Shown here: positions 24,252 to 59,793 of the stretch, piece by piece | Position numbering within the stretch: the stretch's first letter is position 1 | How the letters are laid out: the number at the start of each line of letters is the position of its first letter | Source: Lachnospiraceae bacterium | GTDB taxonomy: Bacteria; Bacillota; Clostridia; Lachnospirales; Lachnospiraceae | NCBI GenBank assembly: GCA_022845895.1 | Contig: AP025573.1 | Span: 484,001-548,000, forward strand | Direction: 5' to 3' | Length of the DNA stretch: 64,000 bases | Notes under the pieces: model-generated | Told to the model about the DNA's origin: nothing | The model's input: only the letters and a program-made list of their open reading frames with translations | The model's database searches: none | Made by a program: the position numbers and the translations under genes

Positions 24252-24725
24252 ACCGCAGCGGCGGGACGCTTTCTCTCTCCCCCTTTTCCGTTCCGCTGCT
24301 GACGCGGCAGCAAAGCCATTCTGAACCTTGACAAAGAAAGCGGCGCAAGATAACGGCGGCGCAGCATAGGGCAAATCGGATACGTTCCTTTTGCGCCGAG
24401 CCATACGGTGGGTGCGCCATGACGCTATCCGGGTGAGGTTATCCCCGCCCGGACAGCCGAGCGACCAACACCGCGCCGGAAAGCAAGTGTAGCGGCTTGC
24501 GGGCGACGACACGCAAAATATACAATGATACTTCCTTACAGCCACAGTCCGAGCGTTAAGAGCGTCGCAGGCAATGGGTAGGGCTGCATGAGAACCATGC
24601 CGGGGTGAAATTCCCATGAGGTTATGCTAATAACCGTCCGATTAAAGCCTTTGTTTTCTTGAATAGTGGACTTGCTGCTATTCATAGACTGTATTATATG
24701 TTTGCGAAAGAAAGGGGGATTTTCT
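24252..24725. other. 474-bp gene-free ICE segment with small hairpins
   Basis: No gene is supported on either strand. The last third contains GGTTAT/ATAACC (about 24617-24632), GGG/CCC around GGGGTGAAATTCCC, and repeated Cys-poor GC-rich tracts. The segment lies between the HTH_16 gene and TnpW, where excision functions are often found. A structured RNA or recombinase-binding arm sites are possible, but nothing definite is visible. Confidence 0.4.
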
Positions 24726-31586: not shown

Positions 31587-31783
31587 TTGATAGCGTAGAA
31601 GCGTGAGGTTGCTGCCCATAGACGGCAGGTTTTCCGTGGAGCGAATGTCAAGTTAGGAAACTGGCGACAAGTCACTGTACGAACTATAACGGCCACTGGA
31701 ATGTGGTAACAACGTGTGAGTTTCTCACGACACACACGGGAGAGTGTACAGTCACCGCTTGTCGTACTGAAGTTATAAGTACG
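31587..31783 (+). promoter_or_regulatory. Structured leader of the S10 operon
   Basis: The 331-bp gap before rpsJ holds no gene. It contains TGCTGCC/GGCAG (about 31610-31628), a long-range stem GCGACAAG...ACTGTAC with GTACAGT...CTTGTCG (31664-31680 with 31746-31764), an inner GTGTGAG/CTCAC hairpin, and CGTACT/AGTACG (31763-31783) just before the binding site AAAAGGAGG. This layout fits a ribosomal-protein autoregulatory leader; the ligand (L4 in the enteric system) is an inference. Confidence 0.6.
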
Positions 31784-45012: not shown

Positions 45013-45400
45013 ATGTTATCAAATTATGCACACAAAATAGGCGGCTGATAGTAGACACACCAGGAGGTGTGTAGACTATTTAAAATATACAAGGACGCAC
45101 CATTAGCCGGTGAATATCCTCGTATATTGCTTATAATACCGGCCCGTCATCACGGAGACATCCGGTGGCCGGAAAGGGCGTGCATACCGACACGCCTGGG
45201 AGCAGACAAAGCTCCCCAGTTAGAGACGATATGCAACTAAATGAGACGTGCACAGATTTCACAATTGGCTTTTGCAGGCTTGCCTGCATAAAGACAAATT
45301 GGGAAAGATGTATAGGGCGAAAGCCCGCATCGAGATGTAGCGAAGCGGAATCGAGATGGCACGGAAGAATTCAATCAAAAAGAAAATGGAGGAAATTCAC
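45013..45400 (+). promoter_or_regulatory. Long structured leader upstream of rpsM
   Basis: This 388-bp gap has no gene; a possible 45-base N-terminal extension of S13 lacks a binding site. Hairpins include ACACACC/GGTGTGT (about 45056-45073), CTGGGAGC/GCTCCCCAG (45196-45220), GCAGGC/GCCTGC (45274-45288) and GGGC-GAAA-GCCC (45315-45326). It resembles an autoregulated ribosomal leader (an alpha-operon S4-type target is one possibility), unproven. Confidence 0.5.
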
Positions 45401-57252: not shown

Positions 57253-58080
57253 ATGTTAGATATTATTAAAGTTATTATTCTGGGGATTGTAGAAGGAATC
57301 ACGGAATGGCTGCCGGTCAGCAGTACGGGGCATTTGATACTTGTAGGGGATGTGCTGAAGCCGGGCATGTCGGACGGGTTTATGGAGATGTTCAACGTGG
57401 TTATCCAGCTCGGGGCTATCATGGCGGTTGTCGTACTTTATTTTCACAAGCTGAATCCATTTTCTCCACGCAAGTCGAGGAAGCAGAAGATGCTCACATG
57501 GCAGATGTGGATTAAAGTGGTAATCGCTTCTGTTCCGGCCGGGATTATCGGCATACTGTTTAATGATATTCTTGACGAACTGTTCTATAAACCATTGCCG
57601 GTAGCGGTCATGCTCATCCTGTACGGCGTGCTGTTTATCATAATCGAGAACCGTAATGCCCACAGGAAACCGAGCATAAGCCGGATATCCGACCTCACGG
57701 TACCGATGCTGCTGTGGATAGGGTTCTTCCAGATGCTTGCGCTGATTCCGGGGACGTCCAGATCGGGCGCGACCATCGTCGGCGCGCTGATTATCGGAGT
57801 TTCAAGAGAGATTGCGGCGGAATTCACCTTCTTCCTCGCGATACCTGCGATGTTTGGGGCAAGCCTCATAAAGCTCATCAAGTTCGGCTTCCACTTTACA
57901 GGTGCGGAATTCGGCCTGCTCATGCTAGGCTGCATCGTATCATTCGGCCTGTCCATCGTGGCGATTCGTTTCCTGATGGGCTACATCAAGAAACACGACT
58001 TCAAAATATTCGGATGGTACCGGATCGTGCTGGGCGGGATAATAGTCATATCGGCTGCGGTGCAGATTTTCCTCAAATAA
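57253..58080 (+). CDS. uppP: Undecaprenyl-diphosphatase
   Basis: 275 aa with eight hydrophobic segments. The active-site regions GIVEGITEWLPVSSTGHLIL and PGTSRSGATIVGAL are complete. It recycles the lipid carrier of cell wall synthesis and contributes to bacitracin tolerance. AAGGGAG precedes the ATG. Confidence 0.97.
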   Translation: MLDIIKVIILGIVEGITEWLPVSSTGHLILVGDVLKPGMSDGFMEMFNVVIQLGAIMAVVVLYFHKLNPFSPRKSRKQKMLTWQMWIKVVIASVPAGIIGILFNDILDELFYKPLPVAVMLILYGVLFIIIENRNAHRKPSISRISDLTVPMLLWIGFFQMLALIPGTSRSGATIVGALIIGVSREIAAEFTFFLAIPAMFGASLIKLIKFGFHFTGAEFGLLMLGCIVSFGLSIVAIRFLMGYIKKHDFKIFGWYRIVLGGIIVISAAVQIFLK

Positions 58081-58084
58081 ATGG

Positions 58085-58360
58085 GAGTTTAGTGAAGTGG
58101 ACGCCGCTGGGGAGGTATGGGGCAGATGCTCCGATGCGTCCGGGAACTGCGACTATCACACAGATTCCTAAGCCTGTGGAATGTTCGCCGATGGCGGCTC
58201 TCACCCCACAAGCCAAGGAATCTGGTGAGGATTCTTAAGTCCCTCCCGCTTAGACCTGCGCATCTGTCCCATACCTCCCCCTCGGCTATCTACTTTACTG
58301 GCACGGGCGAGGGCGGCTGTGTGACACTACTGGCTGATGGAAGTGCTTTGTTTGTGTAAG
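58085..58360 (+). repeat. Diverged structured repeat, copy 1 (plus)
   Basis: It starts GAGTTTAGTGAAGTGG. A 20-bp stem, 58109-58128 with 58261-58280, pairs GGGGAGGTATGGG against CCCATACCTCCCC and further bases with one G-U. CTCCGATGCG, ATTCCTAAGCCT, CTATCTACTT and GGGCGAGGGCGG-type blocks are shared with copy 2. Small open frames inside are not convincing genes. Confidence 0.65.
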
Positions 58361-58418
58361 TATAGAGATAGAGGGCTAAGCAAGCTAAGCCCTTTGCCGA
58401 AGAGAAATCCTAATATAA

Positions 58419-58483
58419 GAAGAGCCGGAATCAGGTACGGGGATGTGTATGAGATGACATCCCCTGCCTGGTTCCGGCTCTTC
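58419..58483 (+). other. Long hairpin between the two structured repeats
   Basis: GAAGAGCCGGAA...GGGGATGT pairs with ACATCCCC...TTCCGGCTCTTC, about 25 bp with small mismatches. No T-run follows. It may end the uppP transcript or separate the two repeat copies. Confidence 0.6.
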
Positions 58484-58619
58484 TTGCAGTAATGGCGTGT
58501 ACGCCTCGCTGCAAATGCTTGACAACGAACATATTCGCCAGCCTGATTCATCTGGACTAGCAAAACTCTTATCATTCATCTGCTCTATGTGTTATTCACA
58601 TTAAGCTTGCGATGTTTTA

Positions 58620-58902
58620 TCACTCAACTGTCGCAGCCAGCGGCCATCCGCTGGCCAGTAACGTCACACATCCGCACTCGCCCTTGTTAAATGAAGTAGA
58701 TAGCGGGCGGGGAGCCGGGTGGGAGATGCGCAGGTGTAAGCGGAAGAGGCGGAGAATCCTTTCCGTAGCCCTTATCCTGCGGGATGTAAGCCGCTGTCGG
58801 CGCGCATTCCGGAGGGGTAGGGATACGTGAAATAGTCAGAGCCTCGTACGCATCGGAGCAGATGCCACCCGGCTCCCAGTCCGCAGCCACTTCACTAAAC
58901 TC
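58620..58902 (-). repeat. Diverged structured repeat, copy 2 (minus)
   Basis: On the minus strand it begins GAGTTTAGTGAAGTGG (58887-58902) and follows copy 1 block by block. Its stem is GGGAGCCGGGTGG (58710-58722) with CCACCCGGCTCCC (58865-58877), differing from copy 1 at several pairs on both arms, so pairing is conserved while sequence is not. The rest of the 58081-59013 gap holds no other feature. Confidence 0.65.
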
Positions 58903-59013
58903 ACAATTCATTGCAGATTCTACTTGTTTTTCCCGGAAAACATGATAAAATATGTACTAGACTTGTATTTTTATGCAGAATAATTTATCAATTAGATTTG
59001 GAGGAATACTATT

Positions 59014-59793
59014 ATGAAAATCAAGAAATTAATGAGCGTACTGCTGGTTGGAGCTTGTGTCGTCTCCCTGGCCGCATGTGGTTCCAAGAAGGATGAGAAA
59101 AGTGACGATGGTGATAAGGAATCCAAAGACACGCTGGTAATGGCAACGAACGCGGAGTTCCCGCCATATGAGTTCCGCGACGGAGACAAAATCGTCGGAA
59201 TCGATGCAGAGGTCGCACAGGCTATCGCTGATAAGCTTGGAATGGAGCTGAAGATTGAAGATATGGCGTTTGACTCTATCATTCCAGCCGTTACAAGCGG
59301 AAAAGCTGACTTTGGCGCAGCCGGGCTTACCGTGACAGAGGACCGTAAAAAGAATGTCGACTTTACAGATACTTATGCAAAGGCAACCCAGGTAATCATG
59401 GTAAAGGAAGACAGCGACGTGGCAGGGCCGGACGATTTGGAAGGCAAGAAGATAGGTGTACAGCTTGGAACGACAGGCGATATGTATGCCGGCGACATCA
59501 AAGATGCAGAAGTGGAACGTTACAATAAAGGATTCGAGGCGGTCCAGGCCGTACAGCAGGGCAAGATTGACGCGGTAGTCATCGATGGCGAGCCAGCCAA
59601 AGAATTTGTAAAACAGGCGGAAGGGATTAAGATTCTGGACGAAGCGTTTACAGAGGAAGAGTATGCGCTTGCAGTAGATAAAGGAAATGACGATCTGCTC
59701 AAGAAGATCAATGACGCGCTGAATGAGCTGAAAGAAAATGGCAAGCTGGACGAAATCGTAGATAAATACATCAATGCAGATGATGCAGAATAA
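59014..59793 (+). CDS. Polar amino acid ABC transporter substrate-binding lipoprotein
   Basis: 259 aa. A lipoprotein signal peptide ends in LAAC (Cys22). The SBP family 3 signatures NAEFPPYEFRDGDKIVGIDA and FGAAGLTVTEDRKKNVDFTD are clear. It captures an amino acid outside the membrane; which one cannot be told. TTGGAGG precedes the start. Confidence 0.95.
   Translation: MKIKKLMSVLLVGACVVSLAACGSKKDEKSDDGDKESKDTLVMATNAEFPPYEFRDGDKIVGIDAEVAQAIADKLGMELKIEDMAFDSIIPAVTSGKADFGAAGLTVTEDRKKNVDFTDTYAKATQVIMVKEDSDVAGPDDLEGKKIGVQLGTTGDMYAGDIKDAEVERYNKGFEAVQAVQQGKIDAVVIDGEPAKEFVKQAEGIKILDEAFTEEEYALAVDKGNDDLLKKINDALNELKENGKLDEIVDKYINADDAE

Follow-up and report, generated by a model that had tools for sequence, protein, structure and literature searches.

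REP/BIME sequences are dispersed palindromes that lie mainly downstream of coding regions, between tandem or convergent ORFs, often close and in opposite orientation (according to the part of PMC3733652 that treats their location). REP units, the RAYT-associated GTAG and CGTC REPs among them, are 20–40 bp long, and the hairpins described here measure ~210 nt within an Extibacter element of ~820 bp and span ~280–360 nt in other genera. Higgins is said to have raised, in 1988, the question of gene conversion in the evolution of REP sequences. ERIC/RU, YPAL, RUP and the bacterial MITEs are likewise mostly intergenic, non-autonomous and repeated sequences that form stem-loops (relevant sections of PMC2267715 and PMC2229807), and among the stem-loop family models in the former's relevant section 67 of 92 measure 31–200 bp (ERIC 115, YPAL 168) and the rest are larger. 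Since some of these families exceed 200 bp, size alone does not make the present element unique. Bidirectional intrinsic terminators occupy the same place between convergent genes, and the Rickettsia palindromic elements are dispersed palindromes, readable as peptide, that lie inside genes.

The element analysed here follows the uppP gene in the window, the whole 64,000-nucleotide stretch of DNA under study. By its place the family to which it belongs is REP/BIME-like, since an ORF stops close to at least one end of the element at 30 of 31 sites and close to both ends at 19; it is new in size, architecture and mode of evolution. Unlike the Rickettsia elements its copies lie at gene ends, and compared with intrinsic terminators its stems are much longer and a U-tract was found in none of 48 strand scans. 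The sharing of sites between species with replacement of the sequence, and the abutment to stop codons, go unmentioned for stem-loop families in the sections of PMC2267715 and PMC2229807 that deal with them. Among the titles and abstract openings listed by our literature search of open-access journal papers, none describes the Extibacter element family. We put at about even the chance that the element belongs to a non-coding family of giant palindromes, dispersed over the genome, by which gene 3′ ends are formed; the best reading of the family is that of unusually large REP/BIME-like palindromes that would be maintained by DNA recombination and whose two-way role at 3′ ends we infer from their place and their replacement.

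The element downstream of uppP and its copies

The element occupies positions 58082–58905 of the window (824 bp, no strand assigned), as delimited by an alignment of 25 units longer than 740 bp from the same genome and by the ends of those units. It is bounded by 19-bp terminal inverted repeats, TGGGAGTTTAGTGAAGTGG on the left (58082–58100, + strand) and its counterpart on the right (58887–58905, − strand; reverse complement TGTGAGTTTAGTGAAGTGG). The left repeat starts 1 nt past the stop codon of uppP (57253–58080, + strand), whose product, undecaprenyl-diphosphate phosphatase, was identified by a match to NF001391 of 399 bits against a cut-off of 293. The next gene (59014–59793, + strand) starts 108 bp past the element and probably encodes an amino-acid ABC transporter substrate-binding protein, to judge from best matches that lie below curated cut-offs.

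Inside the terminal repeats are hairpin A (58091–58300, + strand, ~210 nt), a spacer with a core hairpin (58417–58485, + strand; arms 58417–58441 and 58461–58485, 88% matched), and hairpin B (58684–58897, − strand, ~214 nt), which is inverted relative to A. The long stem of A is formed by arms 58103–58129 and 58260–58286 (27 nt, 89%) and that of B by arms 58703–58736 and 58851–58884 (34 nt, 76%). A repeat search aligned the two hairpins with each other in inverted orientation at 58074–58142/58845–58913 (69 nt, 74%) and at 58243–58295/58694–58746 (53 nt, 77%). The sequence-only reading had described two facing, diverged copies whose stems differ in a matched way on both arms, and all of these features are present in the window: the four stem arms are GGAGGTATGGG at 58111, CCCATACCTCC at 58268, GGAGCCGGGTGG at 58711 and CCACCCGGCTCC at 58865, and both copies fold far better than dinucleotide shuffles (−116.2 kcal/mol, z −8.96 for A; −99.7 kcal/mol, z −6.40 for B). 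The copies are thus real, but they are not an independent pair, as both are the ends of one 824-bp element.

The whole arrangement is repeated in the genome from which the window comes (G000; 4.16 Mb, one contig). Searches with copy A and copy B gave 72 and 67 matches, respectively, which include A–B cross-matches and reverse matches of the palindromes, and since scoring covered 40 of the 85 and 40 of the 91 candidates, the copy numbers are lower bounds; with remnants and the second copies in three regions included, the genome has ~40. Near full-length A places are 83–96% identical and B places mostly 81–95%. In the 37 regions that were taken for study (25 units longer than 740 bp were aligned), A, spacer and B recur jointly and in unchanged arrangement, and the spacer is conserved across the aligned units as well. 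Some copies are shortened or remnants in which the hairpin tips or one half are gone (e.g., L065, L086, L089–L093, L095–L097). Chance similarity is excluded for the element because it has so many further copies in its own genome. Of the two outcomes that would have told against the sequence-only reading, an absence of further copies and a substitution pattern typical of coding sequence, neither was observed. Core-hairpin matches were also seen at ~1349.9, 2118.7 and 3856.4 kb of this genome, outside the A–B copies collected.

Gene ends and shared sites in relatives

The ends of the elements were compared with the stop codons of ORFs open for at least 80 codons at 31 sites of the ~40 copies in G000. 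At 49 of the 62 element ends an ORF reading toward the element stops within −45 to +25 of the border, against a random expectation of 14.7% (10008 trials), and such a stop is present at both ends in 19 sites, at one end in 11 and at none in 1. The stop lies within −3 to 0 at 21 of the 62 ends (random 0.86%), and at 17 ends exactly one base separates the stop codon from the terminal repeat; further offsets peak at +5 (8 ends) and +11 (5 ends), which are in the same reading frame and place the stop codon inside the terminal repeat. A pattern for the terminal repeat identified the border at 47 of the 62 ends, shortened copies included, and the edge of the match was used at the other 15, so some offsets there are shifted. 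Elements usually follow one gene or lie between two convergent genes, and a cruder ORF scan made 2 of 33 sites (L065 and L078) look divergent.

NCBI places Extibacter in the Lachnospiraceae, and three congeners, G001 (“Dorea sp. D27”), G002 and G003 (Extibacter muris DSM 28560), were compared with G000. Among 61 genomes (the own genome and 60 relatives) hairpin A was matched in three, G000, G001 and G003, and so in this genus only. G002 has no match to hairpin A and carries instead a diverged family of the same plan: its inserts (eight examined) measure ~360–830 bp, are bounded by G-rich terminal repeats and mostly contain two inverted hairpins, and the hairpins of the two inserts checked for repeats consist of an outer stem, an inner stem of 33–38 bp and a tip of ~80 nt. 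The predicted fold of one of these hairpins has a forked tip and an energy of −197.8 kcal/mol (z −21).

When element sites were sampled in these genomes (20 in G003, 20 in G001 and 15 in G002) and their flanks were compared with the elements masked, 18 of 20, 18 of 20 and 9 of 15, respectively, had flanks in common with one of the 37 G000 regions; these counts include L139, L169 and L131, for which just one of the two flanks of a given region is shared. The uppP site holds an element in all four genomes. The order of its parts in G003 is that of G000 (with a deletion in A) and in G001 it is the opposite (a run of N interrupts it), and the palindrome behind uppP of G002 shares only the core hairpin with the G000 family. 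Elements at orthologous sites are hardly more alike than elements at different sites: for hairpin A the values are 0.924 (10 orthologous pairs) and 0.914 (326 non-orthologous pairs) between G000 and G003, and 0.900 (14) and 0.893 (462) between G000 and G001; for hairpin B they are 0.882 (8) and 0.881 (316), and 0.900 (10) and 0.900 (395). The small orthologous excess in hairpin A leaves room for some vertical signal. Orientation is opposite in 7 of 30 scorable orthologous pairs, four with G003 and three with G001 (30 of 37 pairs were scored; the ambiguous pairs L063–L133, L073–L153, L082–L163, L086–L157 and L092–L139 were dropped, and two G002 pairs lack A/B arms). Fixed sites, orthologs hardly closer than non-orthologs, and flips are best read as copies that overwrite each other, as far as these comparisons can suggest. 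A family whose sites stay put while their sequence is exchanged allows concerted evolution at dispersed intergenic places to be measured directly.

Two further observations concern G001. At L087 (463.3–470.1 kb of G000) and L165 (332–339 kb of contig C4 of G001) the left flanks are 99.8% identical and the adjoining right flanks ~94%, where other flanks of these two genomes are mostly 85–94% identical; it looks as if a recent transfer or recombination might have had its edge inside the element. At L099 (2250–3828) and other G001 sites an N run is flanked by two half elements that are nearly identical, which is probably a scaffolding artefact at the palindrome.

Orthologous places that lack an element were sought with the flanks of six G002 sites in G000, G002 and G003, and orthologous stretches were compared in four cases in G000 and three in G003. 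At the site of L125 both G000 (L250) and G003 (L254) carry a long hairpin with T-rich arms that was detected as a terminator on both strands, and at the site of L126 G000 (L252) has a terminator-like hairpin that was detected on one strand. At the L118 site the unaligned stretches of the relatives are 56 and 29 bp long, and no terminator was detected in them (L249, L253). At the L130 site the element of G000 is decayed and gave a single terminator match, a weak one; in G003 the site is a short stretch, one end of which resembles an element, and its terminator matches are weak and lie off the junction. L120 has its counterpart in the G000 sites of L063, and for L128 one flank only was found in G000. 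The elements themselves gave no U-tract terminator in 48 strand scans of 24 long G000 elements, where mononucleotide shuffles gave 6.0 (loops of 3–8 only), and a separate terminator scan found none in the window at 57900–59100, where 0.9 were expected. Terminator-like hairpins thus stand at some of the element-free orthologous sites, in the very place that the elements occupy elsewhere.

These observations suggest how palindromes of this kind could form gene 3′ ends. The hairpin would have replaced a bidirectional terminator of the sort still present at some element-free orthologous sites. Because a palindrome reads nearly alike on both strands, the mRNA of each flanking gene would meet a very stable hairpin, which might act as a road-block to polymerase or ribosome, as a barrier to antisense read-through or in protection of the 3′ end. 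The sequences would be maintained by DNA events: template switching between the arms of a hairpin could alter them in step, and other copies could serve as donors for gene conversion or for repair, perhaps where SbcCD has cleaved extruded hairpins. Since the two ends of the element are alike, repair could place the copy either way round. Should transcripts indeed end at these elements, predictors that look for a hairpin and a U-tract would miss a group of gene 3′ ends in one part of a major gut family. Several points count against a 3′-end role. A hairpin that lacks a U-tract is not expected to stop RNA polymerase on its own, remnant copies indicate that a function, if there is one, is dispensable at some sites, the relatives lack both an element and a detectable terminator at the L118 site, and around 13 of the 62 ends a stop codon of this kind is missing. 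A bolder version, which we think unlikely, takes the elements to be “homing palindromes” and a separate way of closing transcription units: giant hairpins that would replace bidirectional terminators at fixed Lachnospiraceae gene ends, act on the RNAs of both strands at the same time and be overwritten continually, in either orientation, through repair of breaks that the hairpins provoke, so that gene ends would evolve in concert.

The element could instead be a selfish, MITE-like mobile element whose 19-bp TG...CA repeats would be used by a transposase supplied in trans, whose bias toward gene ends would reflect harm done by insertion elsewhere, and which would have no host function. Terminal inverted repeats (the pattern is found at 47 of the 62 ends of the 31 sites), many copies, variable orientation and the restriction of hairpin A to one genus among the 61 genomes all fit such an element, and so do the stop codons at offsets +5 and +11, which lie in the terminal repeats and end the flanking ORFs. 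The sites are nevertheless shared by different species, the diverged family of G002 included, and no target duplication was recognisable in seven comparisons of filled and empty sites, whose borders have diverged. ORFs of 90 or more codons inside the copies examined (at most 151 codons) appear on reading to be translations of the palindrome, and none of them was named a transposase; nor does insertion predict that flanking stop codons should adjoin the element directly, without any remainder of the earlier intergenic DNA. We give a selfish element of this kind a chance well short of even.

Pairing, covariation and the remaining alternatives

Compensatory changes in the stems had been proposed from the sequence of the window, and true double changes bear them out. 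RNAalifold gave 59 pairs for 57 A hairpins, 9 of them with double changes, and 52 pairs for 54 B hairpins, 16 of them with double changes (57 of 59 full-length A hairpins were aligned, L071 and the second L163 copy being left out, and all 54 of B; copies that bear N or lack an end had been dropped earlier). The inner stem of B occurs in two block versions that are switched on both arms (~44 and 10 copies) within the same outer stem, as if modules had been swapped between copies. The tip of the diverged hairpin was aligned from 19 sequences of G002, G000, G001, G003 and two other genera, and 35 of its 42 pairs are changed on both sides (20.7 in shuffles), 95.8% of its cells pair (73.9% in shuffles and 32–45% with one side slid), and its covariation score is 0.643 against 0.229; the rows are related and several are near-duplicates, and counts of shuffles are not probabilities. 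In this alignment 199 cells are changed on both sides, against 17 wobble and 33 unpaired cells. The second arm of most tips has, across genera, an internal loop like CUGAG/CGAAU that is compatible with tandem G–A pairs (alignment A3, about columns 58–62 and 90–94).

If RNA of one strand were selected, G–U should exceed A–C at the paired positions, and this wobble count provides a simple separator of one-strand RNA covariation from covariation at the level of DNA or of both strands. In hairpin A the count is 104 G–U to 23 A–C cells, 35 to 20 without the columns in which wobble is the majority, and 13 to 17 when counted by pairs; in hairpin B it is 19 to 35 cells and in the diverged tips 17 to 15. 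Apart from hairpin A counted by cells, the numbers favour neither strand consistently, and pairing seems to be maintained either in the DNA itself or in RNA made from both strands. The earlier idea of a selected RNA or DNA structure holds in so far as this is a structured repeat, but RNA alone is too narrow a reading of it, as A–C is overall about as frequent as G–U.

That template switching can make two arms change in a matched way has been published (PMC8794818, in the portion that concerns it), and as it can yield compensatory changes without selection, covariation by itself is no proof of selection. The family could accordingly be a neutral by-product in which template switching keeps the arms complementary, gene conversion homogenises the copies and nothing is selected. 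The lack of a consistent excess of G–U over A–C would be expected of it, as would the preponderance of double changes over wobble and unpaired cells in the tip. Retention of the same sites, although flanks of G000 and G002 at shared sites are only ~75–89% identical, is not explained in this way, nor are the location at gene ends, the abutment to stop codons and the conserved letters in the internal loop of the diverged tip, and we judge a wholly neutral origin improbable. Another conceivable role, by analogy with BIMEs, is that of a chromosome-organising site that might bind topoisomerase, condensin or a nucleoid protein, or whose cruciforms might absorb supercoils between convergent genes. 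The convergent or tandem location and the strand-symmetric pairing would fit such a site, and E. coli BIMEs interact with gyrase and IHF (PMC2267715, section on these repeats); we nonetheless think this very improbable.

A structured RNA made from a single strand, be it a gene or a cis-regulator (the suspicion of the sequence-only reading), would account for the strong folding, the covariation and the G–U lean of hairpin A by cells. The count by pairs in A, the cells of B and those of the tip show no comparable lean, no sigma-70-type promoter was found at 57900–59100 (a weak scan, with 1.0 expected in shuffles), and the element has no Rfam match at gathering level, in keeping with the sequence-only reading, to which no family of this sequence was familiar; in searches of seven loci taken from the genus and from two other genera, all eight Rfam matches (microRNA, RAGATH-8 and leader models) were below the gathering score. 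We give a one-strand RNA hardly any credence. Window matches above the gathering score are ordinary ones: pemK RNA (24522–24619), an S10-Clostridia leader (31588–31670) and an S4-Clostridia leader (45172–45224). A decayed protein-coding repeat, the fossil coding origin raised from the window and suggested by eye by the similar proline-rich peptides that the halves can be read as, is strongly disfavoured and next to negligible: the best frames stay open in 45 of 57 copies (one reverse frame of A) and in 10 of 54 of B, and none runs through every copy; codon positions differ in diversity within short blocks, but they do so with no consistent 3-base period; and two peptides of element halves matched no Pfam family.

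Two other candidate explanations, a phage or plasmid origin and the loss of SbcCD, were set aside. The element had no match in plasmid and phage collections, and its exact core pattern did not occur in viral contigs; in a collection of genome contigs the core pattern occurs in 28 stretches, four of them outside the genus (Rubrobacter, Verrucomicrobiales, Chitinophagales and an Oscillospiraceae MAG), which we take for chance. Loss of SbcCD as the cause of the palindromes' survival was rejected on the basis of SbcD, which scored over the cut-off in all seven element-bearing genomes tested (G000–G003 among them), and also in 5 of 7 genomes for which no element match was listed. Dozens of very long palindromes are thus kept by genomes that encode an SbcD homologue.

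Forked hairpins in other Lachnospiraceae

A covariance model search of the family had been proposed as a check for further copies, and a model (R1) built from the diverged tip found giant hairpins well outside the genus. It matched at least 23 of 397 family genomes in at least 19 of 334 genera, the genus Extibacter (3 genomes) included, and six family genomes have at least nine matches each; in a sample of the order at least 3 of 354 genomes were matched, all of the same family, and in a sample of the phylum at least 1 of 368, the own genome only among the matches listed. E-values are rough, and strict filters and scoring limits make these counts lower bounds. The model outperformed sequence search across the family genomes: when all 397 were searched for the spacer or for a G002 element, with two candidates scored per genome, what matched beyond the genus was for the most part short and weak.

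When 366-nt stretches around 26 tip loci of other genera were folded (−135.5 to −333.6 kcal/mol), 25 were dominated by one long hairpin with 77–138 nested pairs around the tip, and the 26th, L246, is cut by a contig end. These hairpins are ~270–360 nt long in relatives, against ~210 nt in the window. Among 30 tip loci (four of them in the genus) 13 lie between convergent genes, 13 between tandem and 3 between divergent genes, and 1 is at a contig edge; for comparison, the 56 gene pairs of the window are 7 convergent, 42 tandem and 7 divergent. On reading, the ORFs that neighbour the tip loci look like ordinary genes. At several of the tip loci hundreds of bases separate the tip from the closest ORF end, and exact abutment to stop codons was seen in G000 only.

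Two genomes of the A–B family also have one forked hairpin each that is like those of G002, at ~261.2 kb in G000 (L211/L223) and at ~78.5 kb of contig C4 in G001 (L222). In one further genome (G257; L213, 800–1660) a forked hairpin lies directly behind an ORF that resembles, by eye, the C-terminus of a transposase similar to IS1182-type proteins.
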